NCBI GenBank assembly: GCA_017474385.1
Contig: JAFVHU010000051.1
Coordinates: forward strand, 1-57,420
Length of the DNA: 57,420 nucleotides
Reading direction: 5' to 3'
Source: Afipia sp.
Lineage (GTDB): Bacteria > Pseudomonadota > Alphaproteobacteria > Rhizobiales > Xanthobacteraceae
Shown here: piece after piece, positions 32,259 to 48,751 of the stretch
Position numbering within the stretch: position 1 is the first letter of the stretch
How the letters are laid out: each line of letters starts with the position of its first letter
Made by a program: the position numbers and the translations under genes
Notes under the pieces: generated by a model
Databases searched by the model: none
The model's input: the letters and a program-made list of their open reading frames with translations, nothing else
Told to the model about the DNA's origin: nothing

Positions 32259-32343
32259 CGTCATTGCGAGGAGCAAAGCGACGAAGCAATCCAGCCTTTG
32301 TCTTTTCTCAAGACTGGATTGCTTCGCTTCGCTCGCAATGACG
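32259..32343. repeat. Long inverted repeat (CGTCATTGCGAG family, copy 1)
   Basis: The left arm (32259-32294) and right arm (32314-32343) pair over about 30 bases, from CGTCATTGCGAG to CTCGCAATGACG and from AGCAATCCAG to CTGGATTGCT. The left arm is six bases longer. Loop of 19 bases. It sits in the 5' region of the M20 gene and lengthens its open frame upstream artificially. Confidence 0.75.
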
Positions 32344-35961: not shown

Positions 35962-36120
35962 CTAGTGTGGTGGTTCGCAAGTCCGCATGGTCACTACAGT
36001 GGGCTTTTGCGGACTTGCGAACCAAAACCACACTAGAAATCAATAGTTTCTAGCGTCCTTTCGAATCCGAAGTTCGCTCGGGACGTGCGGCAAAATAAAG
36101 CGAACTTCGGATTCGGGACG
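35962..36120. repeat. Composite CTAG double-hairpin repeat (copy 1, A then B)
   Basis: Hairpin A: CTAGTGTGGTGGTTCGCAAG at 35962 starts the outer arm (26 bases, to 35987); the inner arm is 36008-36036 (29 bases). Linker CTAG-13 bases-CTAG at 36033-36053. Hairpin B: inner arm from 36050 to 36078, outer arm 36099-36120. On each inner arm a TTT triplet (read outward from CTAG) is inserted after the ninth base. The outer CTAG of B is eroded. Same family as 46650-46814, opposite orientation. Confidence 0.85.
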
Positions 36121-36230
36121 TTACTATTTCGGCACCGTGAATCACGCAGAATGCGGTAACGAGACCGGAACAGCGATGAACATCCAGCCAGTTGGCGACA
36201 CTAATACTGGAATCAATTGAGGAACTTCGC

Positions 36231-37922
36231 GTGTACGGCAATTGGCTACCATCTTCGGGCGACCAGCAGAAAACGGTCGGCACAACCTCCCCTTTTCCTG
36301 GCAGTGACATCAGTTCCAGGCCGGCCCGGTCCGTGGGGCTGCGAACCGCATGGCTTGCCGCGACGCTGACCGCTGGATTTGCGCTGCCGGCCGACGCCCA
36401 GGTCTATTGGCCGATGGATTCCGGCGCCGCTTACTATCCCGAACCGTACGAGCGCATCGAGCCACGCCGCCCGCGCGTCGCGCGCGCCAAACAGAAACTG
36501 CCCGATGCCCCGAAGGACACCGCAAAGCCGGTCGGTCCGATCGTCGTCGTGATCTCGATCGAGAGGCAGACCTTGAAGCTCTACGACCAGAACGGCCTGT
36601 TCGCGGAATCGCCGGTCTCCACCGGCATGCGCGGCCATTCGACTCCGATGGGCGTGTTCAGCGTCATCCAGAAGAACAAGTATCATCGCTCGAATATCTA
36701 CAGCGGCGCGCCGATGCCTTACATGCAGCGCATCACCTGGTCAGGCATCGCGATGCACGCGGGCGTCCTCCCCGGCTATCCGGCGTCGCACGGCTGCATC
36801 CGCATGCCGATGAATTTCGCGATGCGGATGTGGGGTTGGACCCGTATGGGCGCGCGCGTGATCATCACGCCCGGCGAAGTCTCACCTGCTGATTTTTCCC
36901 ATCCGCTGCTGATCGCTCGCAAGCCGAGCACAAAACCCGTGGCGGCCACGCCGGAGCCGGAGAAGCACGCAGAGACCACGCCGAAATCCGACCGGTCGTC
37001 GATTGTCGACGCCGCGTCGCACGACAAACCGCAATTGCGGCTGACCTCGATCTCTGAAGACGCGCCAGTTCGTACTGCAGATGCCAGCGGCGCACTCCCG
37101 CAAACGAGCGACGCGGACACCGTCGTTGCGCAGGCATGGGATGCCAGTCGCGGTGGTGGTTCATGGGATGCTGGCCGTGGCGGCGTCACGCCCGAACCCG
37201 AGGCGCCCAAGGAAGGCGCCAAGGAGAATGCCAAAACTCCGTCTTCAAACTCACAGAAAGATGGCGCCGCAGCCAAGGACGATGCTGCGAAAAACACCGA
37301 CGGCAATGCCGGTGCCTCCGATGACAAGTCACCCGACGATAAGTCTCCAGACGGAAAGCCTGCCGACAAAAAGTCAGAGGCTCCGAAGACCGACAAGGAT
37401 CAGACTCGAGTGACCGATACCGGCGCAGCGCCAGTGCCGGTTGCGCTCGCGCCTGAGGGATCTGCCGAATTCATCGGCCCAATGAAACCGCGCACCGGAC
37501 ATGTCGCCGCTTTCGTCAGCCGCAAGGAAAACAAGATCTACGTGCGGCAGAATTTCGAACCGTGGTTCGAAGCGCCGGTCACGATCGCCGCATCTGACCG
37601 TTCGCTTGGCACGCACGTCTTCACGGCTCGCACAGACAAGAATGACACCGAGGCGCTGCGCTGGTCGGTGGTCTCGCTGCCAGCGCCCACGCGCGCAACG
37701 GAAGAGGCTCCGCGGCGCAGGCGCGGCGAGCCGGTCGCCGCCGTGGCAGTCCCTGCGCCGCCGTCATCGCCATCCGAAGCGCTTGACCGCCTGACCATCC
37801 CTGAAGACGCCATGACCCGGATCGCCTCGGCTCTGGCGCCGGGCGGATCGATCACCGTGTCGGATCGCGGTCTTGGCGACGAGACAGGACGCGGCACGGA
37901 TTTCATCGTCCCGCTGCGGTAG
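36231..37922 (+). CDS. L,D-transpeptidase (YkuD) with long disordered tail
   Basis: 563 residues from GTG (GAGGA eight bases upstream). The N-terminal signal segment is LRTAWLAATLTAGFALPADA. The YkuD domain (about 103-215) has VVVISIERQTLKLYD, a GMRGHSTPMGVF loop and the active site IAMHAGVLPGYPASHGCIRMP, with catalytic Cys189. Forms 3-3 peptidoglycan cross-links or attaches proteins in the periplasm. A long Asp/Lys/Ala/Ser-rich stretch (about 230-410) leads to a second conserved block (IGPMKPRTGHVAAFVSRKEN, PWFEAPVTIA) that may be a degenerate YkuD-like or wall-binding module. Confidence 0.88.
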   Translation: MYGNWLPSSGDQQKTVGTTSPFPGSDISSRPARSVGLRTAWLAATLTAGFALPADAQVYWPMDSGAAYYPEPYERIEPRRPRVARAKQKLPDAPKDTAKPVGPIVVVISIERQTLKLYDQNGLFAESPVSTGMRGHSTPMGVFSVIQKNKYHRSNIYSGAPMPYMQRITWSGIAMHAGVLPGYPASHGCIRMPMNFAMRMWGWTRMGARVIITPGEVSPADFSHPLLIARKPSTKPVAATPEPEKHAETTPKSDRSSIVDAASHDKPQLRLTSISEDAPVRTADASGALPQTSDADTVVAQAWDASRGGGSWDAGRGGVTPEPEAPKEGAKENAKTPSSNSQKDGAAAKDDAAKNTDGNAGASDDKSPDDKSPDGKPADKKSEAPKTDKDQTRVTDTGAAPVPVALAPEGSAEFIGPMKPRTGHVAAFVSRKENKIYVRQNFEPWFEAPVTIAASDRSLGTHVFTARTDKNDTEALRWSVVSLPAPTRATEEAPRRRRGEPVAAVAVPAPPSSPSEALDRLTIPEDAMTRIASALAPGGSITVSDRGLGDETGRGTDFIVPLR

Positions 37923-37947
37923 TCCGAGCAGACTGTTTCTTTCGCTC

Positions 37948-38007
37948 GTCCCCGCGAAAGCGGGGACCCAGGATTTGGCACACTTGGATTCCCGCTTTCG
38001 CGGGAAT
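37948..38007. repeat. Double-hairpin repeat (GTCCCCGCGAAAGCGGGGAC type)
   Basis: Hairpin GTCCCCG-CGAAAG-CGGGGAC at 37948-37967, a 20-base spacer, then ATTCCCG-CTTTCG-CGGGAAT at 37988-38007. The loops are reverse complements (CGAAAG/CTTTCG), so the two halves are also mutually inverted. Lies between the transpeptidase and the GT-C-like genes and could act as a terminator. Confidence 0.7.
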
Positions 38008-38073
38008 GACCGGAGAGAGTTTCGTCAGCATCAATCAGCGTCAAAATGCCTTGCAACCCGGTTGGCTTTCGGC

Positions 38074-38096
38074 GGCGCGTTAAGCTAGAACGCGCC
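38074..38096 (+). other. Hairpin in place of a ribosome-binding site
   Basis: GGCGCGTT-AAGCTAG-AACGCGCC is a perfect 8-bp stem ending three bases before the ATG at 38100, where a Shine-Dalgarno would be expected. No alternative site is seen, so initiation may be structure-dependent. Confidence 0.45.
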
Positions 38097-38099
38097 ATT

Positions 38100-39752
38100 A
38101 TGACAACTTCCCCCGACATCCGGTCCGCCGCCGCGCCTGTCGCCAAAACGCACCCGCGCGACGCGCTTGCGATGCTGACACCGTTCCGCTGGAACGGCGG
38201 ACTGGCAGTGATCTTCGCGCTTCTTGCCGCGTCGTTTTTCGTTGCCGGCTATTTCGTCATCTACTGGCGCAACGCCGACATGGACCTGGTCGTCATCTAC
38301 AATGCCCTTGTGATGAACGACGGAGGGCCGCAAGCCTATCACGATCATCCCGCCTATCTCACGATCGTATCGCTGAAGCTGTGGTTCCAGTTGCTTCATC
38401 ATCTGGGGCTGTTGAACGCCTGGAAGCTGTCGTCCCTTCCCCCGGCATCGGATATCCCTGCATTCGATGCCGCGATGACCGAGGCTGTTCGCTCCGGCCG
38501 CGTGCTGGCGGGACTAATATCTGCGCTCTTCGTCGCAGCCTTCGCAGGGCTTATCCGCCTGATCGTGCGTGACTGGCGGATCGCGCTGCTCGCAACGTTC
38601 GCTTTCGCATTTTCCGGCGGCGTCGCGGTTCACATGCGCATTCTGCGCACCGAGATGATCGCAGCGTGTTTCGTCATCTTCGCTTTCATGACCCTGATCG
38701 TTGTCGCCCAACGCGCCAGGACATGGCGGCCGCTCGCGCTGATGGCCGCTGCTGCGCTTTGCATCCTCGGCATGGAAAACAAAGTGCAGGTCATCCTGCT
38801 GATCGCCGCGCTGCCCATGATCATACAGCCGTTCGGCGCCGGCTCCGGCGCAAGCTCCGGCTTCTGGGACAACGGCAGCCGGGCGTGGCTCACGACCCTG
38901 TTTGCTGCGATCGTCACAGCCGCTTTATTCGTCGCCGCGCTGCCATTGATCCGCGCCGGCTTCGATCCGGATGCGATCGCGACCGCCAAGCTCCGTCCAC
39001 TGATCGCTGGCACCTTCGGACTCTATCAGATTGCGCTTGCCGCATGGATCGACATCGGCATGACGGTGTTTGCCATCATCTGGCGCATACGTCTCACGGA
39101 GACCTTGACGGCGATGTGCGCGGTGATTGCCGGCGCATCGCTCGGATTGCTCGCCCTCAATCTGGACTACAACGTCCAGAATGCCGTCGCGCTCATAAAT
39201 CCGATCGAGAAGATGCTGGTCTTCATCGATCTGGCCAGCGCGCAAGACATAGCGCGCGACGGAAACATCGTCGGCGTCGGACTATTGTTTAAGGGAATCG
39301 TCGGCGTTCTCCAGCGCTACAGCTTCGTCCTTTTTACGTCGCCGCGCCCTGCGGTGTTTCTGACCTGGCTGATCATCCCCGGTATCTTCTACGCATGGCG
39401 GCGCGGCGAGAAACAGGTTGCATTGCAGGCGGCACTGCTGCTCCTGACGGCCATCGGTATCGACGCGCTCGGCATACGGCGTGGGTTGAAGGCAGAATAT
39501 TTCATTCTGACGGATCCCCTCATCATCATCGCGGGCGCAGTTCTGCTCGACCGGATGAACGACCTGCGATTGCGCAAATGGGCCTATCCGATCGGTGCAG
39601 CGCTTCTTGTTCTGCATGTTGCGGTCAGCCAGGCTGAGCCAGTGAAGTTTGTCCTGAAACGCGAAGGGCCGGAAGGCTACTGTCAATGGAGGCCCTACTA
39701 CATGCCGCTGATGCCTCTACCCCATTGCAGCACGCCGGCCAAACCCGCATGA
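38100..39752 (+). CDS. GT-C-like polytopic membrane protein (first of tandem pair)
   Basis: 550 residues with about 12 hydrophobic segments. After TM1 (LAVIFALLAASFFVAGYFVIYW) comes an external loop RNADMDLVVIYNALVMNDG, then DHPAYLTI. A first loop with acidic residues is characteristic of GT-C glycosyltransferases (lipid-linked sugar donors, periplasmic active site), but I cannot name the family. Other blocks: DWRIALLATFAFAFSGG, MENKVQVIL, NPIEKML, RRGLKAEYFILTDPLIII. Very similar to the next gene, which overlaps it by ATGA. Lacks a Shine-Dalgarno; a hairpin precedes the start. Confidence 0.7.
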   Translation: MTTSPDIRSAAAPVAKTHPRDALAMLTPFRWNGGLAVIFALLAASFFVAGYFVIYWRNADMDLVVIYNALVMNDGGPQAYHDHPAYLTIVSLKLWFQLLHHLGLLNAWKLSSLPPASDIPAFDAAMTEAVRSGRVLAGLISALFVAAFAGLIRLIVRDWRIALLATFAFAFSGGVAVHMRILRTEMIAACFVIFAFMTLIVVAQRARTWRPLALMAAAALCILGMENKVQVILLIAALPMIIQPFGAGSGASSGFWDNGSRAWLTTLFAAIVTAALFVAALPLIRAGFDPDAIATAKLRPLIAGTFGLYQIALAAWIDIGMTVFAIIWRIRLTETLTAMCAVIAGASLGLLALNLDYNVQNAVALINPIEKMLVFIDLASAQDIARDGNIVGVGLLFKGIVGVLQRYSFVLFTSPRPAVFLTWLIIPGIFYAWRRGEKQVALQAALLLLTAIGIDALGIRRGLKAEYFILTDPLIIIAGAVLLDRMNDLRLRKWAYPIGAALLVLHVAVSQAEPVKFVLKREGPEGYCQWRPYYMPLMPLPHCSTPAKPA

Positions 39753-41392
39753 CGGCATCCGTCGAAAGCCCCGCAGGTAGAGCACATCAAAAACCGCAAC
39801 GCGACGCGCTGGCGCGGCTGACTCCCTTCGGCTGGAACGGCGGACTGACCTTCATCCTGGCGCTGCTTTCCGCTTCGTTTTTTTTCGCGGGATATTTCAT
39901 CATCTATTGGCGCAATGCCGACATGGATTTCATGATCGTCTACAACGCGCTCGTGATGAACGACGGCAAGCCGCAGGCGTTCTTCGATCATCCGTCCTAC
40001 TTCACCATCCTATCGGTGAAGTGGTGGTTTCAGGCGATGCATGCGCTGGGCTTGCTCGATGCCTGGAAACTTTCCTCGATTCCGTCTGCTTTAAATGTTC
40101 CGGCGTTTGATGCCGCGATGACCGAAGCCGTTCGCGCGGGCCGTATCGTTGCGTGGCTGACCGCCACCCTGCTCGTTGCAATTTTTGCCGCCTTGTCGCG
40201 GCGTCTTTTCAGTGACTGGCGCATCGCGCTGCTCGCGACATTCGCCTTTGCCTTTTCAGGTGGCATGGCCGTCGAAATGCGTATCCTGCGCAGCGAGATG
40301 ATCGCAGCGAGCTTCTTCATTTTCGCGCTGATGATCCTGATCATCGCCGGACGCTGCGCGACCATATGGCGGCCGCTGGCGCTCGCAGCAGCGGCTGCTC
40401 TGTGCGTGCTCGGCATGGAGAATAAGATCCAGATCATCCTCCCGATCGCAGCGTTATCGTTCCTGATATTGCCGTTCGGTGCATCAACAGGTGCCAGTGG
40501 GGCGTTTTGGAACAAGTCCGCGCGAGCGTGGGCGGTCGTACTGTTCGCCGGCGCAGCCTCGGTTTTCTTCGGATGGCTCGCGCTGCCTCTGCTTGCCGCG
40601 GGCATGGATTCCGCTGCAACTGCGGAAGCGACAATCCGTCCGCTGATCGGCGGTAGGTTCGGCCTCTACCAGATCGCACTGCTTGGCTGGATTGCTGTCT
40701 GCATGATTGCTTACGCCGCCATCTGGCGGATCAGCGTGACCGAGACGCTGGCCGCGATGTTTGCTGTCGTCACAGGCGCCGCATTCGGGTTGCTCGCGCT
40801 CTATCTTCAGTACAACGTCCAGAACGTCGTCGCGGTCATCAATCCGATCGAGAAGATGCTGATGTTCGCCGACATGCCCGCAGCCGGCACGGGCGACAGC
40901 AGCCTGATGGCTGCGTTCGGCTTGTTATTGTCCGGACTGAAAAGCGTTCTTGAGCGCTACTCCTTCGTGCTGTTTACGTCGCCGCGCCCGACCGTTTTTC
41001 TCATCTGGCTGATCGTTCCGGGCATCGTCCTTGCGTGGCGCAGGGGCGAACGGCAGGTCGCCGTTCAGGCTGTGCTGCTCGTATTGCTCGCCACCTGCAT
41101 CGACGCCCTGGGCGTGCGGCGAGGATTGAAACCGGAATACTTCATCCTGACCGACCCGCTCATCATCCTCGCCGGCGCGCTGCTGCTGGAGAAAATGAGC
41201 GATCTGCGGTTCAGCAAATGGGCCTATCCCATCGGCGTGGCGCTGATCGTTGCTCACGTCGCCATCAGCCAGGCCGAGCCGGTCAAACATGTCCTGAAGC
41301 GCAGCGGCCCTGAATATATCTGCGAGTGGAACGAATATTACGAACCGCTGCTACCGATGCCATGGTGCGACAAGCCGCCAAAGCGTCCCTGA
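39749..41392 (+). CDS. GT-C-like polytopic membrane protein (second of tandem pair)
   Basis: 547 residues, paralogue of the upstream gene along its whole length, with long identical blocks (YWRNADMD, YNALVMNDG, PAFDAAMTEAVR, DWRIALLATFAFAFSGG, RYSFVLFTSPRP). Same acidic first external loop and about 12 membrane segments. The start is fixed by the ATGA overlap with the preceding stop. Presumably both act on the same pathway or form a heterodimer. A sugar-transfer role onto a lipid or wall polymer is inference. Confidence 0.7.
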   Translation: MTASVESPAGRAHQKPQRDALARLTPFGWNGGLTFILALLSASFFFAGYFIIYWRNADMDFMIVYNALVMNDGKPQAFFDHPSYFTILSVKWWFQAMHALGLLDAWKLSSIPSALNVPAFDAAMTEAVRAGRIVAWLTATLLVAIFAALSRRLFSDWRIALLATFAFAFSGGMAVEMRILRSEMIAASFFIFALMILIIAGRCATIWRPLALAAAAALCVLGMENKIQIILPIAALSFLILPFGASTGASGAFWNKSARAWAVVLFAGAASVFFGWLALPLLAAGMDSAATAEATIRPLIGGRFGLYQIALLGWIAVCMIAYAAIWRISVTETLAAMFAVVTGAAFGLLALYLQYNVQNVVAVINPIEKMLMFADMPAAGTGDSSLMAAFGLLLSGLKSVLERYSFVLFTSPRPTVFLIWLIVPGIVLAWRRGERQVAVQAVLLVLLATCIDALGVRRGLKPEYFILTDPLIILAGALLLEKMSDLRFSKWAYPIGVALIVAHVAISQAEPVKHVLKRSGPEYICEWNEYYEPLLPMPWCDKPPKRP

Positions 41393-41474
41393 TGTTCGTC
41401 ACGGGTTCTTGAAACTCGCGGCGGCGACAATCCGTTATCTTGGGCGACACCGTATCAGGATCAGGGAGCGCATC

Positions 41475-42047
41475 ATGATCGACCGCCGAAATGTCATTAC
41501 GGCCATCGCGGCGGGCGCAGCACTTCCGCTCACGGCGCAATCCGTGTTCGCACAGGCGGCCATGAGCCGCATAACTGCCTACGGCTTTTCCTTCCAGAAC
41601 CTGAAAGGCGGCGACATCCGCCTCGCCGACTTCGCCGGCAAGCCGGTGCTGGTGGTGAACACCGCCTCGCTCTGTGGTTACACGCCGCAATACGCCGGCT
41701 TGCAGGAGTTGTGGACGCAGTTTCGCGACCGCGGCCTGATGGTCATCGGCGTGCCGTCCAACGATTTCGGTGCACAGGAGCCGGGCGGAGCAAGCGACAT
41801 CGCCCACACCGCCGAGCAGACCTATCACGTCAGCTTCCCGGTCACGGTCAAGACGAGCGTGAAGGGGCCGAACGCCCATCCGTTCTACAAGTGGGCGGCG
41901 GCCGAGCGCCCGGCCGACCTGCCGGGCTGGAATTTCCACAAGTACCTCGTTGGCCGCGACGGCCATATCGCCGAGGCGTTTTCCTCCCGCGTCGAGCCCA
42001 CCGATACACGCGTCGTCACCGCCGTCGCCCGCGCGCTCACCTCCTGA
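41475..42047 (+). CDS. Tat-exported glutathione peroxidase-like protein
   Basis: 190 residues after AGGGAG. The N-terminus MIDRRNVITAIAAGAALPLTA is a twin-arginine signal, so export is folded. GPx domain: VLVVNTASLCGYTPQYAGLQ with the peroxidatic Cys, GVPSNDFGAQEPG (the usual NQF Gln position is Asp) and WNFHKYLVGRDG (catalytic Trp/Asn). Reduces peroxides in the periplasm, probably with thioredoxin-like donors. An exported GPx is less common than the cytoplasmic form. Confidence 0.88.
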   Translation: MIDRRNVITAIAAGAALPLTAQSVFAQAAMSRITAYGFSFQNLKGGDIRLADFAGKPVLVVNTASLCGYTPQYAGLQELWTQFRDRGLMVIGVPSNDFGAQEPGGASDIAHTAEQTYHVSFPVTVKTSVKGPNAHPFYKWAAAERPADLPGWNFHKYLVGRDGHIAEAFSSRVEPTDTRVVTAVARALTS

Positions 42048-42200
42048 CGGAACTCTCACACACGCCTCAATTAACCCTGCCAACGCTCCTGTTGAAAATC
42101 GGTTGGCGCAATAAACCATGTGGGTCTAGGCTGATCGCCGGGGACTACGGCGGCGTCCGGCGGACCGGACGCGGGGGATTTTGCGTTCAGGGGTACTTCC

Positions 42201-43163
42201 ATGCGTATCAAGGCAACTTTTTTCGCCGCTAGCGCCATCTCGGTCTGCGCTTTCACCAGCGTCTGGTCGCAGGCCCTCATCCCGCAGCGCACCACCCCAC
42301 CTCCTGCTCCCGCCGCCACACCGGCTCCTGCCGCGACCACTCCAGCTCCGGCACCTGCTCCGACAGCCGCAAAAGCCAACTGCGCCAACCCGAACGCCAT
42401 CGGCGTCGCGCGCGTGGTGCAGATCGACACCACCGGCGGTCCCGGCTTCGGTTTCGAGCATTTCAAGCAGCTCGATTTCCTGCGCGACAAGGAAGTGGTG
42501 CTGACGTTTGATGACGGCCCATGGCCGGTCAACACGCCGTCGGTCCTCAAGACCCTTGCCGACGAATGCACCAAGGCGATCTTCTTCCCGATCGGCAAAC
42601 ACGCCACCTACTATCCCGAAATTCTCAAGCATGTCGCCGCCGAGGGCCACACCATCGGCGCGCACACCTGGTCGCACGCCAATCTCAACAACAAGAAGCT
42701 GACCGAAGCACAGCAGAAGGAAGAGATCGAGAAGGGCTTCAGCGCGGTCGAATGGGCGCTCGGCGCGGCACCGTCGCCGCTGTTCCGCTTCCCCGCGCTT
42801 CAGCATCCGCCCGCCATGGTGACGTATCTCGGCGAACGCAACATCTCGATCTGGTCATGCGATCTCGACTCGTTCGACTTCAAGGCCAGCACGGCACAGA
42901 AGATCGTCGACACCGTCATGACGAAGCTCGACAAGTTCGGCAAAGGCATCGTGCTGATGCACGATTTTCAGAAGCACACCGCAGAAGCCCTGCCTGAACT
43001 GATGAAGCGGCTGAAGGCCGGCGGCTATAAAGTGGTCCAGGTCAAGGCCAAGGCGCCGATGCAGACCATCGCGCAATACGACGAGGAAGTCGTCAAGGGT
43101 CTCAAGCTGCCGACGGTGAGTTCGCGCCCGCTTAACAGCGTGGTGCAGACCATTTCCGAGTAG
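42201..43163 (+). CDS. Secreted polysaccharide deacetylase (NodB domain)
   Basis: 320 residues. Signal peptide, then a Pro/Ala-rich linker (about 27-60). NodB motifs: VVLTFDDGPWPVNTP (catalytic Asp, metal Asp), IGAHTWSHANL (metal His pair), LFRFPAL (Arg), CDLDSFDF (Asp) and GIVLMHDFQ (His). Removes acetyl groups from an N-acetylated polysaccharide such as peptidoglycan or exopolysaccharide in the envelope. All five motifs are intact. Adjacent wall-related genes fit this role. Confidence 0.9.
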   Translation: MRIKATFFAASAISVCAFTSVWSQALIPQRTTPPPAPAATPAPAATTPAPAPAPTAAKANCANPNAIGVARVVQIDTTGGPGFGFEHFKQLDFLRDKEVVLTFDDGPWPVNTPSVLKTLADECTKAIFFPIGKHATYYPEILKHVAAEGHTIGAHTWSHANLNNKKLTEAQQKEEIEKGFSAVEWALGAAPSPLFRFPALQHPPAMVTYLGERNISIWSCDLDSFDFKASTAQKIVDTVMTKLDKFGKGIVLMHDFQKHTAEALPELMKRLKAGGYKVVQVKAKAPMQTIAQYDEEVVKGLKLPTVSSRPLNSVVQTISE

Positions 43164-43194
43164 CGGACAACGCGCACTTGCGGCTTTCCCGGAA

Positions 43195-43758
43195 ATGGCT
43201 AAACCGCACGTCATGCGCATTGAAGGCTATGTGATTGTTTCCGCCGACGGCATGCTCGCCGACGCGCACGGCGTTATGCCCGCGACGCTGAAGTTCGACG
43301 CTGATCAGAAGTTCTTCGATGCCGCGCTCGACGCCGCGAACCTGATCGTTCACGGCAAATACTCTTTCGAGGACCAGCCGCATTCGCCCCAGCGCTCGCG
43401 CATTATACTGACGCGCAGCGTCTCCGCCCTCGCCCCCGATCCATCCAATTCCAAAGCGACCTTGTGGAATCCCGCAGGAGCGTCGTTCGAGGACGCCTGC
43501 CGTCATGCCGGTGTGACCACAGGAACAGCCGCAATCATTGGCGGTCCCGGTGTGTTTGAGATGTTCATGGATCGCTACGACACGTTCTGGCTGTCGCAGG
43601 CGCACCGTTTGAAAATTCCGGACGGCATCGGCTGCTTCCCCGATGTGCCGTCGCGCTCGCCGCAGGACGTTCTCGCCGCGCACGGTCTCACGCCAACGGA
43701 GACGCGCATTCTCGATGCCGCGCGGGAGGTCGACGTGACGGCGTGGCGGCGGAGCTAG
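43195..43758 (+). CDS. DHFR-like (RibD C-terminal type) protein
   Basis: 187 residues. MRIEGYVIVSADGMLADAHGVMP (substrate loop as in RibD/DHFR), ANLIVHGKYSFE and GTAAIIGGPGVFEMFM (NADPH-binding GGxx). No deaminase domain is present. Many such stand-alone proteins are reductases of unknown substrate. The start may instead be the ATG at 43213. Its stop overlaps the convergent DoxX gene by four bases. Confidence 0.75.
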   Translation: MAKPHVMRIEGYVIVSADGMLADAHGVMPATLKFDADQKFFDAALDAANLIVHGKYSFEDQPHSPQRSRIILTRSVSALAPDPSNSKATLWNPAGASFEDACRHAGVTTGTAAIIGGPGVFEMFMDRYDTFWLSQAHRLKIPDGIGCFPDVPSRSPQDVLAAHGLTPTETRILDAAREVDVTAWRRS

Positions 43759-44210
43759 ACGCCGGTGTATCGGCCGCTGTCTTCCATCGCCACCGGACGC
43801 GGATAGCCCGCGATCACCAGGAGGCCGCCGATCAGCGACAGGTTCTTCAGCGCATGGATCATGTTGTTGATGCGGTCCGCACCGGTCATGTCCCAGAAAT
43901 TGTGGAAATAGAACGTCGTCACCGCGACGAACAGCACCAGCAGCCAGGCGAAAGTCCGCGTGCCGAAATTCAGCGCGATGAACAATCCGCCGATCACTTC
44001 CAGAGCGCCCGCCAGGATCGCCAGCATCTGCGCGGTCGGCATCCCGGTGATACCCTCAAGCTGGCTCGTGTACTGCGTCAGCATCGCCGGAAGGACGACC
44101 TTCTCGGTGATCGCCTGGGTGGTTGAGGCGATATCGAACAGCTTGGAGGCGCCGGAAAACACAAACAGAACGACGAATAAAACACGTCCAACTGTAACGA
44201 TGGCTGGCAT
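43755..44210 (-). CDS. DoxX family membrane protein
   Basis: 151 residues from MPAIVTVGRVLFVVLFVFSGASKLFD; four membrane helices. DoxX signature: RVLFVVLFVFSGASK, AILAGALEVIGGLFIALNFGTR, FHNFWDM and NNMIHALKNLSLIGGLLVI. The family is linked to thiol/redox or quinone-linked membrane functions, without a settled role. Convergent with the DHFR-like gene. Confidence 0.88.
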   Translation of the reverse strand: MPAIVTVGRVLFVVLFVFSGASKLFDIASTTQAITEKVVLPAMLTQYTSQLEGITGMPTAQMLAILAGALEVIGGLFIALNFGTRTFAWLLVLFVAVTTFYFHNFWDMTGADRINNMIHALKNLSLIGGLLVIAGYPRPVAMEDSGRYTGV

Positions 44211-44259
44211 TTGTCGGCCCCACTGAAATCCCGCGAACGGGACTATACAGGAGTTGCCG

Positions 44260-46569
44260 TCAACCGAACAGCGTCGGCTGCTGCCGCCCCGCCCGCTCCT
44301 GCGCCTCGACCGCCGCAACCGCCGTCATGTTGAGAATCCCGCGCGCCGTCACCGACGGCGTCAGGATGTGCGCCGGACGCGTCGGTCCGATCAGGATCGG
44401 CCCGACCGGCAGCGCGTCCGCGAGGATCTTGATCATCTGATAGGCGATATTGGCCGCGTCGAGGTTCGGCATGATCAGGATATTGGCCGAACCTTCGAGC
44501 CGGGAATGCGGCAGCACGAGCTGGCGCGACAGCGCAGTCAGTGCGGAATCGCCCTGCATTTCGCCGTCGGCTTCGATCTCGGGATGGTCGTTCACCAATA
44601 TCTCGGTGGCGCGCCGCATCTTCTGCGCCGACGAGGAATCGTAGCTGCCGAAATCCGAATGCGACAGGAAGGCGACCTTCGGCTTGATGCCGAACCGCTG
44701 AACGTGGACGGCGGCAAGCGCCGCCATTTCCGCCAGCTCCTCTGCCGTCGGATTCGGACGGATCTGGGTGTCGGCGATGAAATAGGCGCCCTTGCTGGTG
44801 ATGACCAGCGCCAGTGCCGAATAGTCCGCGAGTCCCGGCGTCACGCCGATGATCTCGCGAATGCGCCGCAGATGGCTCATGTAACGGCCGTCGACGCCGC
44901 ACAGCATGGCGTCGGCTTCGCCTCGCGCCACCGCGAGCGCCGCAATCACGGTCGCATTGGTGCGCACCAGAGTCCGTGCAGCTTCCGGCGTGATGCCGTG
45001 CCGCCCGGCCAGATCGATATAGCTTTGCACGTAAGAGCGATAACGCGGATCGTCTTCGGGGTTGATCAGATCGAAATCGCTGCCGGGATTGATCGACAGG
45101 CCGAACCGCTTGATGCGCGCGGCCACCACGGACGGGCGTCCCACCAGAATCGGACGCGCCAGCTTCTCCTCGAGCACCACCTGCACCGCGCGCAGCACGC
45201 GCTCGTCCTCGCCTTCGGCGTAGATCACGCGCACCGGCTGGGTCTTGGCTTTCGCGAACACCGGCTTCATCACAAGGCCGGATCGGAATGCGAAGCGATC
45301 GAGCTGGCTGGTATAGGCGTCGAAATCGGTGATGGGTCGCGTCGCGACGCCGGACTCCATGGCGGCTTTGGCCACCGCCGGCGCCACACGCAGGATCAGC
45401 CGGGGATCGAACGGGCTCGGGATCAGCGAGCCGGGACCGAAGCCCTGGGTCTCGCCGCCGTCGAAACGCGTCACTACATCGGACGGCGGATCGCGCGCGA
45501 GCTGCGCCAGCGCATCCACCGCAGCGACCTTCATCGCTTCGTTGATCGCCGTGGCGCCGACGTCGAGCGCGCCCCGGAAGATGAAGGGGAAGCACAGAAC
45601 GTTGTTCACCTGATTGGGGAAGTCCGAGCGTCCGGTACAGATCATCGCATCGGGCCGCGCCTTTCGCGCTTCATCCGGCATGATCTCGGGGTTCGGATTG
45701 GCCAGCGCCATCACCAGAGGCTGGTCGGCCATTGCCTTGACCATCTCGGGCTTCAGCACGCCGCCCGCGGACACGCCGAGGAAAATGTCCGCGCCGCCGA
45801 TCACGTCGCCGAGCGTGCGCTTGTCGGTCTTCTGCGCGTAGACGGCCTTCCATTTATCCATCAGCGTATTGCGGCCTTCATAGACAAGGCCGTCGATATC
45901 GCAGACCCAGATGTTCTTGCGCTGCGCGCCAAGCGACACCAAAAGATTGAGACAGGCGATCGCGGCCGCGCCTGCGCCCGACGCAACGATCTTGCAGTCC
46001 TCCAGCTTCTTGCCGTTGATCATCAGCGCGTTGCGAACCGCAGCGCAGACGATGATCGCAGTGCCGTGCTGGTCGTCGTGGAAGACGGGAATTTTCATTC
46101 GCGCCTTGAGCTGCTCCTCGATCTCGAAGCACTCCGGCCCCTTGATATCTTCGAGGTTGATGCCGCCGAAAGTCGGCTCCAGCGCAGCCACCGTCTCCAC
46201 CACACGCGCGATGGTGTCTGCGGCGATCTCGATGTCGAACACATCGATGCCGGCGAATTTCTTGAACAGGACGGCCTTGCCCTCCATCACCGGCTTGGAG
46301 GCCAGCGGGCCGATGTTGCCGAGGCCAAGCACCGCGGTGCCGTTGCTGACGACGGCAACAAGATTGGCGCGCGTTGTCAGCGTCGCCGCCTCGTGCGGAT
46401 CGGCGGCAATCGCTTCGCACGCCGCCGCCACGCCCGGCGAATAGGCCAGCGCGAGGTCGCGCTGGTTCGCCAGCGGCTTGGTCGCCTGAATCTCGAGTTT
46501 ACCGGGCTTGGGAAGTCGATGATACGCCAACGCCGCGAGGCGAAGTTCTTCAGACAACGTCGACGCCAT
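44260..46569 (-). CDS. maeB: NADP-dependent malic enzyme with phosphotransacetylase-like domain
   Basis: Decarboxylates malate to pyruvate with NADP, supplying NADPH and pyruvate; cytoplasmic. 769 residues is the usual MaeB length. Malic domain: [73 protein letters not shown] (metal Asp) and a Rossmann part ([16 protein letters not shown]). The C-terminal ~330 residues (from [18 protein letters not shown]) form a phosphotransacetylase-like regulatory domain. CGGGAG precedes the ATG. Confidence 0.95.
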
Positions 46570-46649
46570 ACCCGCTCCCGATATTCTCTTTGCCCCGGCT
46601 TGCGCCGGTGCTGTTTAGTCCCGTCCTGCGACGGTTATGCGATTCAATA

Positions 46650-46814
46650 CTAGTGTCCTGAATCCGAAGTTCGCTTCATTTTGGCAGCGCATTCCATAGC
46701 TAACTTCGGATTCAAAAGGACACTAGAAACTATAATTCTAGTGCGGTTTCGGTTCGCAAGTCCGCAAAAGAGCGTGCCGCAGAAACGATGCGGACTTGCG
46801 AACCACCGCACTAG
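46650..46814. repeat. Composite CTAG double-hairpin repeat (copy 2, B then A)
   Basis: Hairpin B: outer arm 46650-46675 (CTAGTGTCCTGAATCCGAAG), inner arm 46698-46726. Linker CTAG-11 bases-CTAG (46723-46741). Hairpin A: inner arm 46738-46766, outer arm 46789-46814. Inner arms are 29 bases, outer arms 26; the extra triplet (TTT read from CTAG) follows the ninth base. The terminal CTAG overlaps the aspS stop codon. Reverse-complement arrangement of the copy at 35962-36120. Confidence 0.88.
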
Positions 46815-48577
46815 GGCAGATTGAGCCGGATATGAAGCTCGCGCAACTGCTTGAGCGAGACCTCGGATGGCGCGCCCATGAGCAAATCTTCGGCACGCTG
46901 GTTCATCGGGAACAGCGAGATTTCGCGCAGGTTGTTCGTACCGCAAAGCAGCATGACAATGCGATCGACACCGGCCGCCATGCCGCCGTGCGGCGGTGCG
47001 CCGTACTGGAATGCTCGATACATGCCGCCGAAACGCTCAATGACCGTTTCCTCGCCATAACCCGCGATCTCGAACGCCTTCACCATCGCCTGCGGGCGAT
47101 GGTTGCGGATGCCGCCCGACGCAATCTCGTAACCGTTGCAGGCGATGTCGTACTGGAACGCCTTGATCGTGAGCGGGTCCTGCGTCTCAAGCGCTTCGAG
47201 GCCACCCTGCGGCATCGAGAACGGGTTGTGCGAGAAGTCGACCTTCTTCTCTTCCTCGTTGTACTCGTACATCGGGAAGTCAACGATCCACGCCAGTTCG
47301 AACCGGTCCTTGTCGATCAGGTTCAGCTCTTCGCCGAGCTTCGTGCGCGCAAGGCCTGCGAACTTCCAGAACTTCTGCGGATCGCCCGCGACGAAGAACG
47401 CAGCGTCGCCTTCCTTCAGGCCAAGCTGTTCACGGACCGCGGCGGTGCGCTCGGGTCCGATGTTGTTGGCGAGCGGGCCCGCGCCCTCGCCACCTTCGCG
47501 CCACATGATGTAGCCGAGGCCCGGCTGGCCTTCGCCCTGCGCCCATGAATTCATACGGTCACAGAACGCGCGTGATCCACCACCCGGACCGGGAATCGCC
47601 CAAACCTGATTGCTGGCGTCTTCCAGCATGCGTGCGAACACCTTGAAGCCGGAACCGCGGAAGTGCTCCGACACGTCCTGCATTACAAGCGGATTACGCA
47701 GGTCCGGCTTGTCGCTGCCGTACTTGCGCAGTGCTTCAGCAAACGGAATGCGTGGCCATTTCTTGGTGACCGGCTTGCCCTTGGCGAAATCCTCGAACAC
47801 ACCGGTAATCACCGGCTCCATCGCGGCGAACACGTCGTCCTGCGTGACAAAGCTCATTTCGAGATCGAGCTGATAGAACTCGCCCGGCAGACGGTCGGCA
47901 CGCGGGTCTTCGTCGCGGAAACACGGCGCGATCTGGAAGTAGCGGTCGAAGCCCGACATCATCAGCAGTTGCTTGTACTGCTGCGGCGCCTGCGGCAGCG
48001 CATAGAACTTGCCGGGATGAATGCGCGACGGTACGAGGAAGTCGCGCGCACCTTCCGGCGACGACGCGGTGAGGATCGGCGTCTGGAATTCGAAGAAGCC
48101 GGCCTTCTTCATCCGCGCGCGCATCGAGTCGACGATGGCGCCGCGTGTCATGATGTTCTGGTGCAGCTTCTCGCGGCGCAGATCGAGGAAGCGATACTTG
48201 AGTCGGATTTCCTCGGGATATTCCTGATCGCCGAACACCGGCATCGGCAGTTCGCCGGCCTCGCCGAGCACTTCGATGTCGGCGATGAACACTTCAACTG
48301 TGCCGGTCGGCAAATCAGGATTGTCCGTGCCTTCGGGACGGCGGCGGACCTTGCCGTCGATCTTCACCACCCACTCGGCGCGCAGTTTTTCGGCCAGACC
48401 GAATGCCTTCGAATCCGGATCGACCACGCATTGCGTCATCCCGTAGTGGTCGCGCAGATCGATGAACAGCAGTCCACCATGGTCGCGGATGCGGTGACAC
48501 CAGCCGGACAGCCGGACCTCCTGGCCAATGTCGGAATCGCGGAGGGCGCCGCAGGTGTGGGAACGATAACGGTGCAT
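46811..48577 (-). CDS. aspS: Aspartate--tRNA ligase
   Basis: Charges tRNA-Asp (and probably tRNA-Asn). 588 residues, bacterial type: N-terminal OB fold (1-105), class II core with [58 protein letters not shown] (motif 2), the GAD insertion (about 290-420) and [11 protein letters not shown] (motif 3). His33 in RIRDHGG is the residue found in non-discriminating AspRS, where E. coli has Leu. Start at MHRYRSH after AGGA. The stop codon lies within the CTAG end of a composite repeat. Confidence 0.97.
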
Positions 48578-48751
48578 GGAAATCCTGGAAAACGGCGTCA
48601 GAGACAAGAATCAGGGGATAGGCGCAGGGTTTACCCGAGCGCAGGGAACGCGGCAACCGGATGGTGGCGGTTACCCTCCCGGATAACGGGAAAAAGCTTA
48701 ATAAAAACAATGCGCCCGCTGGCCGTCCTGAAGGCGGGGCGTGAACTGTTT

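Follow-up and report, generated by a model that had tools for sequence, protein, structure and literature searches.

Paired bulged hairpins with CTAG-like feet: mobile, candidate REPIN-like elements in Afipia and other Hyphomicrobiales

The window analysed here, a 57,420-nt stretch of contig JAFVHU010000051.1 from a draft genome of Afipia sp. (GCA_017474385.1), carries two copies of a composite repeat, each made up of two hairpins (A and B) joined by an A+T-rich linker. The copies lie in opposite orientation, A-linker-B at 35962-36124 on the forward strand and its reverse complement at 46650-46814. A preliminary description of this DNA had given the same arrangement and ended the first copy at 36120, four bases short. 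The parts of the two copies are as follows.

35962..36036 (+): hairpin A of copy 1, with outer foot CTAG, a 10+15 bp stem, a 20-nt loop, inner foot CTAG, and a 3′ arm bulged by AAA
35962..35965 (+): target tetranucleotide CTAG of copy 1, present as a single CTAG in 11/11 comparable empty relatives
36037..36049 (+): linker of copy 1, A+T-rich
36050..36124 (+): hairpin B of copy 1, with inner foot CTAG, a TTT bulge in the 5′ arm, and an outer foot that now reads TTAC
46650..46726 (-): hairpin B of copy 2
46727..46737 (-): linker of copy 2, A+T-rich
46738..46814 (-): hairpin A of copy 2
46811-46814: outer foot of hairpin A of copy 2, the source of the TAG stop of an aspartyl-tRNA-synthetase-like gene (46811-48607)

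All four hairpins in the window, folded as single-stranded DNA, are far more stable than their shuffles (z −6.8 to −9.2). A sequence-independent scan of the window for the same shape returned five matches, four of them the A and B hairpins, while five mononucleotide shuffles (287,100 bases in total) returned 0; the bulged-hairpin shape is thus present in the window far beyond chance. The fifth match (32271-32334) is a hairpin without CTAG and is unrelated to the family. In A the bulge lies in the 3′ arm and is AAA-like, and in B it lies in the 5′ arm and is TTT-like; each therefore faces the linker. In the alignment of 40 copies described below, the A bulge is three bases long in 40/40, and the B bulge is three bases in 37, two in 2, and absent in 1. 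With a shape scan that demands a bulge but leaves its side free, 68 pairs were found in 74 loci of the same genome and 77 pairs in 108 loci of named genomes, and the bulge points toward the linker in 145/145 pairs from these bacterial genomes, in agreement with the conserved triplet on the linker-side arm that the preliminary description had pointed out. Its suggestion that A and B share an origin is likewise borne out, given that the covariance model of A matches B and that of B matches A, in each case on the opposite strand, A being akin to the reverse complement of B. A loop-loop (kissing) contact between the two hairpins was considered and rejected, as only 70.7% of cells pair; the apparent complementarity of the loops comes from the inverted relationship of A and B.

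Using the composite as the query, we retrieved and aligned 40 copies of this subfamily in the draft genome (L017, a duplicate of window copy 2, is excluded from this number), and A and B are paired in all 40. Separate scans with A and B led to 38 further places, 35 of which hold both hairpins, mostly as members of sister subfamilies. Altogether, both hairpins are present in 75 of the 78 copies inspected in this genome, with two seemingly single and one truncated, and we therefore retain the earlier view of a composite unit. The copies are spread across many contigs and form no single array. Beyond this genome, our model R2 matches 10 of 120 sampled Hyphomicrobiales genomes (this one included), and a relative assembled as one contig (G012, 99% complete) holds many copies. 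In viral contigs, the B core was found in six stretches and the shape scan saw two pairs, one of which has both bulges on the 5′ side and so breaks the linker-facing rule; a search of phage records gave no match. Plasmid matches comprised eight Roseibium/Labrenzia records with 52% of the query covered, and the one examined (H1) lies between convergent genes in DNA without an annotated feature. Older papers describe rhizobial repeats such as RIME and RPE. Among the open-access PMC papers that the literature searches listed, we recognised none as describing this paired-hairpin family.

The genomic context was tabulated for 75 copies (L112, L093:1481, and the truncated L082 being excluded). None of these lies inside a gene (0/75), 71/75 have at most 15 bases in common with any predicted gene, and 29 of 46 neighbouring 3′ ends are at most 20 nt away. 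As at copy 2 in the window, a neighbouring predicted gene stops within the foot of the element in 15/75 copies, meaning that paired-hairpin elements rewrite gene ends. Relative to tandem genes, 25 copies are oriented with and 17 against transcription, which is not a convincing bias, and the flanking gene pairs are convergent once and divergent 23 times, all as raw counts.

The stems covary, as the preliminary description had noted from the window alone. Changes on both sides were observed in 34/51 stem pairs and, when seven tested loop-loop pairs are added, in 37/58, a level reached in 0/500 shuffles. Within the stems, double Watson-Crick cells outnumber one-sided cells (108 vs 52), and G·T and A·C cells number 17 and 16, respectively, in a mismatch count that excludes pair 128-152. 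Because these two mismatches are equally rare, the fold is conserved as DNA and not as RNA. The earlier attribution of these changes to selection on the fold stands in part only: the covariation is clear, but hairpin-templated correction between the arms would produce it equally well. The feet behave in a similar manner, varying from CTAG to CTGG, CCAG, CTCG, TCAG, and others, with the partner foot changing to match, and the complementarity of outer and inner feet exceeds all 5000 permutations in A and B alike. The identity between the outer feet of A and B, on the other hand, is not raised (1365/5000 permutations as high).

Comparison with relatives indicates that the paired-hairpin elements move. 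Copy 1 is missing from all comparable relatives (11/11), where one CTAG is kept. Of 16 relatives examined for copy 2, 4 are occupied and 6 have a clean empty site. With occupied and empty orthologous sites also found at other loci, the mobility that had been offered as an inference is now observed. At these other loci, the residue is exactly four bases in 43/60 empty-allele alignments and of other lengths in 17/60, as obtained with an aligner in which four undefined bases at the join align to any base without penalty, so that its gap-free outcome is a 4-base residue. The 90-base flanks on each side limit this bias, and BLAST pieces made without the free-join aligner are also often four bases longer than the query. 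In most cases, then, empty and occupied alleles are shown to differ by the element plus one foot. The CTAG duplication that had been expected was not seen, as the empty site holds one tetranucleotide and the outer feet, as above, are alike no more than permuted ones.

The table of targets keeps the 43 of 60 alleles with a 4-base residue, other lengths being dropped. CTAG itself occupies 6 of the 43 (0.04 expected from the surrounding DNA), and 19, including these six, lie within one base of CTAG (1.6 expected), which clearly shows that insertion prefers CTAG-like tetranucleotides. In the other 24, the target is at least two bases from CTAG, e.g., TCCT (L023), AGAG (L041), and GGTG (L025), with AGAT at L024:2412 as another distant case; target choice is thus loose, or ancestral targets have been lost. 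At L024 and L039, three of five sites lack a clean 4-base residue in most relatives, and at L245 (4628-4874) one element is nested exactly within the CTAG foot of another. The outer foot resembles the target of its own locus more closely than it does those of permuted loci, in A (p = 0.0006) and in B (p = 0.046). At L029, the target is TCAG in three relatives, and the occupied allele has TCAG as the A outer foot, CTGA as the A inner foot, and CTAG as the B outer foot; at L046, the target is GGCA, with GGCG as the A and CTAG as the B outer foot. As to the side that keeps the target, five loci favour A, four favour B, and 13 are tied, and the comparison at L039:3574 favours B.

We read these repeats as ~160-bp gene-less mobile elements of Hyphomicrobiales, built from two related, inverted, bulged hairpins and an A+T-rich linker, that are REPIN-like and non-autonomous and would be mobilised as a single strand by a trans-acting enzyme; as a whole, we give this reading an even chance of being right. 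Recognition and movement would involve the folded single strand of the element, whose inner foot may serve as a DNA guide by pairing with the tetranucleotide of the flank or target. The outer feet would be the sites of cleavage, with insertion beside the target tetranucleotide, which would remain as one outer foot. The pairing of outer and inner feet could instead be the product of arm-to-arm correction after insertion rather than of guided targeting, and orthologous copies at site 2 display a double change within one foot that is of the arm-to-arm correction type. Also counting against the reading are searches that turned up neither a mobilising enzyme nor, in the 1.44 Mb covered, an autonomous copy, together with the loose targets, the residues of other lengths, and the split between A and B as the side that keeps the target. 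The enzyme, acting in trans, would be other than the Y1 transposase of REPINs and IS200/IS605, or else related to it too remotely to match the Y1 profile. A further-reaching form of this reading, possible at best and on the whole doubtful, makes the family a distinct class of DNA-guided repeats, with four-base guides in the inner feet, folded-strand movement by a non-Y1 enzyme, and loops heavily altered at each move. Such alteration is suggested since, when 26 copies scored as missing in G014 are compared with the 40 aligned copies, their closest counterparts have stems up to 100% identical and a best loop-plus-linker identity averaging 0.72, a divergence beyond that of the site-2 orthologues, whose loops and linker differ by 0.12–0.22 at 0.05–0.11 flank divergence.

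An ordinary miniature inverted-repeat element (MITE) of a CTAG/TA-targeting DDE transposase of IS630 or IS5 type, with the feet as target duplications and the hairpins as long inverted repeats, is an unlikely alternative, although several observations suit it. IS630/IS5 families prefer CTAG/TA-type targets, the CTAG-like target and 4-base residue could come from duplication of 4 bp or of a TA within CTAG, and the genome has three DDE_3 (IS630-type) genes. Against this, the outer feet resemble each other no more than permuted feet, the target is retained on one side only at L029 and L046, and the three DDE_3 loci, scanned for the hairpin shape as possible partners, are without such hairpins. 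A lone scanner match at these loci (L050, repeated at the equivalent position in L011) is G+C-rich DNA unrelated to the family. A simple MITE would also leave unexplained the two complete bulged hairpins, the constant size and side of the bulge, and the pairing of feet within a hairpin.

The preliminary description had looked to a Y1 (RAYT-like) transposase with these hairpins in its own flanks, and a true REPIN/BIME, i.e., REP pairs whose RAYT (TnpAREP) the assembly lacks or the genome has lately lost, would account for the inverted pair of bulged hairpins, the tetranucleotide foot, the intergenic location, and the numerous diverse copies. REPtrons may moreover vanish while REPs persist, according to passages of PMC3733652. 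The searches do not favour this explanation. The draft genome (84% complete) has no Y1 match at E ≤ 0.001, and matches occur in 3/29 members of the genus and in none of the other 26, which include this genome and the copy-rich, 99% complete G012. Of the 18 Y1 match loci fetched (up to about 1.5 kb on each side, with one G018 gene split over three of them), none carries the element. There is also no GTAG motif outside the palindrome, and the hairpins are ~75 nt long, compared to the 20–50 nt given for REPs in a passage of PMC8266576. We thus consider a true REPIN/BIME quite improbable. A search for an autonomous copy, taken as a gene with a single hairpin on either side and the two facing inward or outward as a pair, found none in 1.44 Mb of loci from named genomes, viral contigs, and relatives. 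This test flagged L130 and L224 alone; L224 was rejected as a transposon, given its 5′-bulged hairpins adjoin decayed partners and nothing transposon-like is seen there.

Integron attC sites are bulged single-strand hairpins with extra-helical bases, and a folded-strand substrate of a tyrosine recombinase of this kind might, by analogy, explain the bulged hairpin of similar size, its extra-helical bases, and insertion without visible duplication; however, no attC core-site sequence is apparent by eye in the copy alignment, and the sites are dispersed over many contigs and not arrayed, leaving this explanation very unlikely. Least probable of all is a structured RNA or transcription signal (a terminator or mRNA stabiliser), spread by whatever means and kept by selection on the RNA fold, which the strong stem covariation, the essentially gene-free location of most copies, and the nearby 3′ ends would suit, but against which stand the G·T wobble that is not preferred to A·C, the tandem-gene orientation and the rarity of convergent relative to divergent pairs (in the raw counts above), the failed loop-loop pairing, and the 0 matches to Rfam in the window at gathering thresholds. 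A tRNA search likewise returned none.

The single-strand, REPIN-like reading places the family beside several known systems. Like IS630/IS5-type MITEs, the elements are small and gene-less, with a CTAG-like target and precise empty sites; they differ in showing no target duplication, in their two complete bulged hairpins, and in that this genome's DDE_3 genes lack adjoining hairpins of this kind. REPs and REPINs are the textbook gene-less hairpin repeats and are accounted for by Y1 transposases. With REPINs/BIMEs, our elements share two related bulged hairpins that are inverted and joined by a linker, tetranucleotide feet, an intergenic location, multiple copies, and mobility without a gene. 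They differ in the length of the hairpins (~75 nt, with loops of ~20–24 nt), in CTAG-like feet, each paired to a CTAG-like inner foot, where the GTAG of REPINs is unpaired, in the divergence of A and B from each other, and in Y1/RAYT matches that are absent from most genus members and from the hairpin flanks. The family follows a logic similar to that of REPINs, its architecture is strict, and it has clearly moved of late within one genus, yet 26/29 members of that genus are without a Y1 match. The GTAG- and CGTC-tagged palindromes are also interspersed and occur in partly shared hosts, including Bradyrhizobium, but are short and carry other tags, according to passages of PMC3733652, where the CGTC class is likewise without an associated transposase gene; CTAG as a word or word start has 0 occurrences in the main text of that paper. 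IS200/IS605 elements (IS608) appear similar to the family in how they insert, at a tetranucleotide and with no duplication seen, and share with it the hairpin ends and the complementarity between internal and flanking tetranucleotides. Our elements differ in being ~160 bp long, with no transposase gene and no Y1 in the genome, and their guide and cleavage site would be the two strands of the stem base in plain Watson-Crick pairing, while the IS608 guide lies 5′ of each hairpin. A passage of PMC5934647 describes IS608 as inserting 3′ of a tetranucleotide that is kept in the left flank and paired by the guide. If foot pairing guides insertion in the present family as well, nature would offer a further example, besides IS608, of targets chosen by a DNA guide. 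With so many polymorphic sites, the mobilizer and the targeting rule are both open to direct testing.

The composite element consists of two related, inverted and bulged hairpins, A and B, and occurs twice in the window:

35962-36124, + strand: copy 1 of the composite element (hairpin A, linker, hairpin B)
46650-46814, - strand: copy 2 of the composite element (hairpin A, linker, hairpin B)

In both copies the hairpins are joined by an A+T-rich linker of 11-13 bases, and each stands on CTAG-like tetranucleotide feet, the outer at the element edge and the inner beside the linker. Hairpin A comprises a 10 bp base and a 15-16 bp inner stem, and hairpin B a 9 bp base and a 17 bp inner stem, with loops of ~20-24 bases in both. 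The bulge of A is AAA-like and sits in the 3′ arm, that of B TTT-like and in the 5′ arm, so that both face the linker. Folded as DNA, the four window hairpins gave z from -6.8 to -9.2, and a shape scanner, which ignores sequence and requires a bulge of 2-4 bases, returned no matches in five mononucleotide shuffles of the window. The scanner also passed a single unrelated hairpin lacking a CTAG foot (32271-32334), and we noted a different palindromic repeat (GTCCCCGCGAAAGCGGGGACC ... GGATTCCCGCTTTCGCGGGAATGA), which we take to be perhaps of the CGTC-tagged kind, at window positions 37939-38019 and in a second locus (L234, 10527-10605).

Searching the own draft genome at the DNA level returned at least 52 matches (E ≤ 0.001, both strands counted, 40 of 61 candidates scored), and local re-search and alignment yielded 40 distinct copies. 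The preliminary description had proposed a paired unit with a conserved triplet bulge, and both features held, with A and B present in 40/40 copies and a bulge of three bases in A in all 40 and in B in 37 (two bases in two copies, absent in one). Scans with covariance models of hairpin A (R1) and hairpin B (R2) added subfamilies with other stem sequences and an unchanged plan; as each scan scored only 150 candidates, out of 1830 and 2851 at first look, the own copy number is a lower bound. Both hairpins were present at 35 of the 38 additional own places read out, the exceptions being a truncated element (L082) and two apparent singles (L112 and L093:1481-1557). These two (L112 at 1169-1246) carry another stem type, ACTTTCCGAAGTTCGTGA, which appears there as a lone hairpin with no clear partner. 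In 74 own loci the shape scanner detected 68 pairs along with 10 singles; the 108 loci taken from named genomes yielded 77 pairs and 37 singles. Several of the singles are pairs whose decayed partner escaped detection. The 145 pairs all follow one rule, a 3′-arm bulge in the first hairpin and a 5′-arm bulge in the second. Six viral or proviral IMG/VR contigs (L226-L231) contain the B hairpin core; two pairs were detected in them, one with both bulges in the 5′ arm, against the rule of the 145 pairs.

Mobility, earlier only suspected, is borne out by occupied and empty orthologous sites. Copy 1 was seen in the own genome only. Of the 16 relatives fetched, 11 allowed both flanks to be located; the site was empty and read CTAG in all of these, leaving exactly 4 net bases in nine. 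Copy 2 was present at the same place in 4 of the 16; six others were cleanly empty (net 4 bases), and in the remaining six a different sequence of 55-1273 bases took its place. When five additional own sites were compared across nine relatives, two (L024:2412 and L039:3574, the latter occupied in G026 and G018) left net 4 bases in 14/16 empty alleles. In most relatives the other three gave residues of different length or longer unrelated sequence, and the relative G014 carries the element at the first L039 site (999). The joined flanks of 33 additional copies were searched in four relatives and, as read from the match table, found as one piece in G014 for 27, including one that retains a 34-base element remnant (L032) and one with an unclear join (L047); L014, L037 and L044 were split, and for another three a single flank was recovered. 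Across 60 alignments, the net residue was 4 bases in 43, 5 in seven, 3 in four, 2 in two, 1 in two, and 34 and -19 once each. In the relative G028 (L245, 4628-4874), one element lies precisely within the inner CTAG foot of an element from a different subfamily.

Insertion occurs at a preferred CTAG-like 4-mer. Among 43 four-base empty alleles (22 loci), six were CTAG and 19, these six included, lay within one base of CTAG, against 0.04 and 1.6, respectively, expected from 4-mers of the same fetched stretches, an excess indicating a strong preference, although 24/43 differ from CTAG at two or more bases. Base composition predicts 200 CTAG in the window but only 20 occur (ten times rarer), seven of them within the two elements. 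The outer foot of A resembled its own-locus target (2.44 of 4 bases matched, permuted loci 1.93, p=0.0006) and that of B did so weakly (2.19, permuted loci 1.97, p=0.046); by locus, A was closer in five, B in four (L039:3574 favours B) and 13 were tied. A is favoured most plainly at L029 (TCAG both as target in three relatives and as A outer foot, with CTGA as A inner and CTAG as B outer foot), L046 (target GGCA; A outer GGCG, B outer CTAG) and L038 (target CCAG in G014, CAAG in G012 and G019). Had a 4-bp duplication survived, the two outer feet should resemble each other, yet their likeness was not raised (1365/5000 permutations as high), so the CTAG duplication considered in the preliminary description is not visible. 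The net gain at insertion is in most cases the element and a single foot. In A and B each, none of 5000 permutations reached the complementarity seen between an outer foot and its own inner foot, and the feet are paired within each hairpin.

The suggestion of covarying stems was likewise upheld, with two-sided changes in 34 of 51 stem pairs across the 40 copies, and in 37/58 pairs of the whole tested structure (including seven loop-loop pairs), a value reached by no shuffle. A loop-loop contact between A and B was tested and rejected. Over 50 stem pairs, 1943 of 1998 cells were Watson-Crick, and double Watson-Crick changes numbered 108 cells versus 52 one-sided. Mismatches were G·T in 17 cells and A·C in 16. 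An RNA under selection should show more G·U than A·C, so on this pattern the fold is maintained as DNA or equally on both strands. The arm covariation may stem either from selection or from hairpin-templated correction between arms, and the bulge persists under either.

For the 26 own copies classed absent from G014, the stems of the nearest relatives among the 40 aligned copies are up to 100% identical, with the best loop-plus-linker identity averaging 0.72 (maximum 0.81); in orthologous site 2 copies, loops and linker differ by 0.12-0.22 and flanks by 0.05-0.11. The new insertions hence have no near-identical source among the aligned copies. Source copies could have been lost, or could lie in a part that the draft lacks or in a different strain; stem homogenisation or alteration of the loop at each move could likewise account for their absence.

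DNA matches were found in 29/29 genus members and in 3/8 of the family's other genera; 24 genomes of other families gave none. Within the order, R2 matched (E ≤ 1e-9) at least 10 of 120 genomes, the own one among them, in eight families; the stricter filters and capped scoring of this survey make that a lower bound. Matches listed include Afipia, Bradyrhizobium, Nitrobacter, Hyphomicrobium, Pseudolabrys, Rhodoplanes, Devosia and one MAG labelled Acidobacteria, with a partial match in Roseibium/Labrenzia plasmids. According to a simple codon-bias gene caller, 66 of 75 own copies are flanked by predicted genes on both sides (raw counts: 42 tandem pairs, 23 divergent, 1 convergent). Of the rest, five have one neighbour in view and four overlap a predicted gene; no copy falls entirely within a predicted gene. 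In 15/75 copies the foot provides the TAG at which a predicted gene stops, among them an aspartyl-tRNA-synthetase-like gene at copy 2.

The Y1 (RAYT-like) transposase flanked by such hairpins that had been envisaged did not emerge. A PF01797 profile search, which matched 5/14 control genomes and would miss a very distant HUH protein, found no Y1 protein in the own draft (84% complete), matches in only 3/29 genus members, own included, and none at E ≤ 0.001 in G012 (one contig, 99% complete, many element copies); the element was at 0 of 18 fetched Y1 match loci. Judged by Y1 presence and linkage, the element would not be a REPIN. REP repeats are palindromes preceded by GTAG, and TnpAREP cuts at CT beside REP, with a stem bulge needed in E. 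coli (PMC8266576). By likeness in working, the element may be placed with the REPIN kind, not as a member. Among the open-access papers that our searches listed, we recognised none as describing the bulged A-B CTAG hairpin family. Nearest is a paper on Bradyrhizobium palindromes, which reports repeats tagged GTAG and CGTC (PMC3733652) and has no word starting with CTAG in its main text; the feet of the present element are CTAG-like. The substrate of movement would be folded single-strand DNA, with the inner foot as a putative guide to the choice of target. IS608, which inserts 3′ of TTAC and retains TTAC in the left flank, works in the way suggested here for the element, in that its guide tetranucleotides pair with the cleavage sites (PMC5934647).
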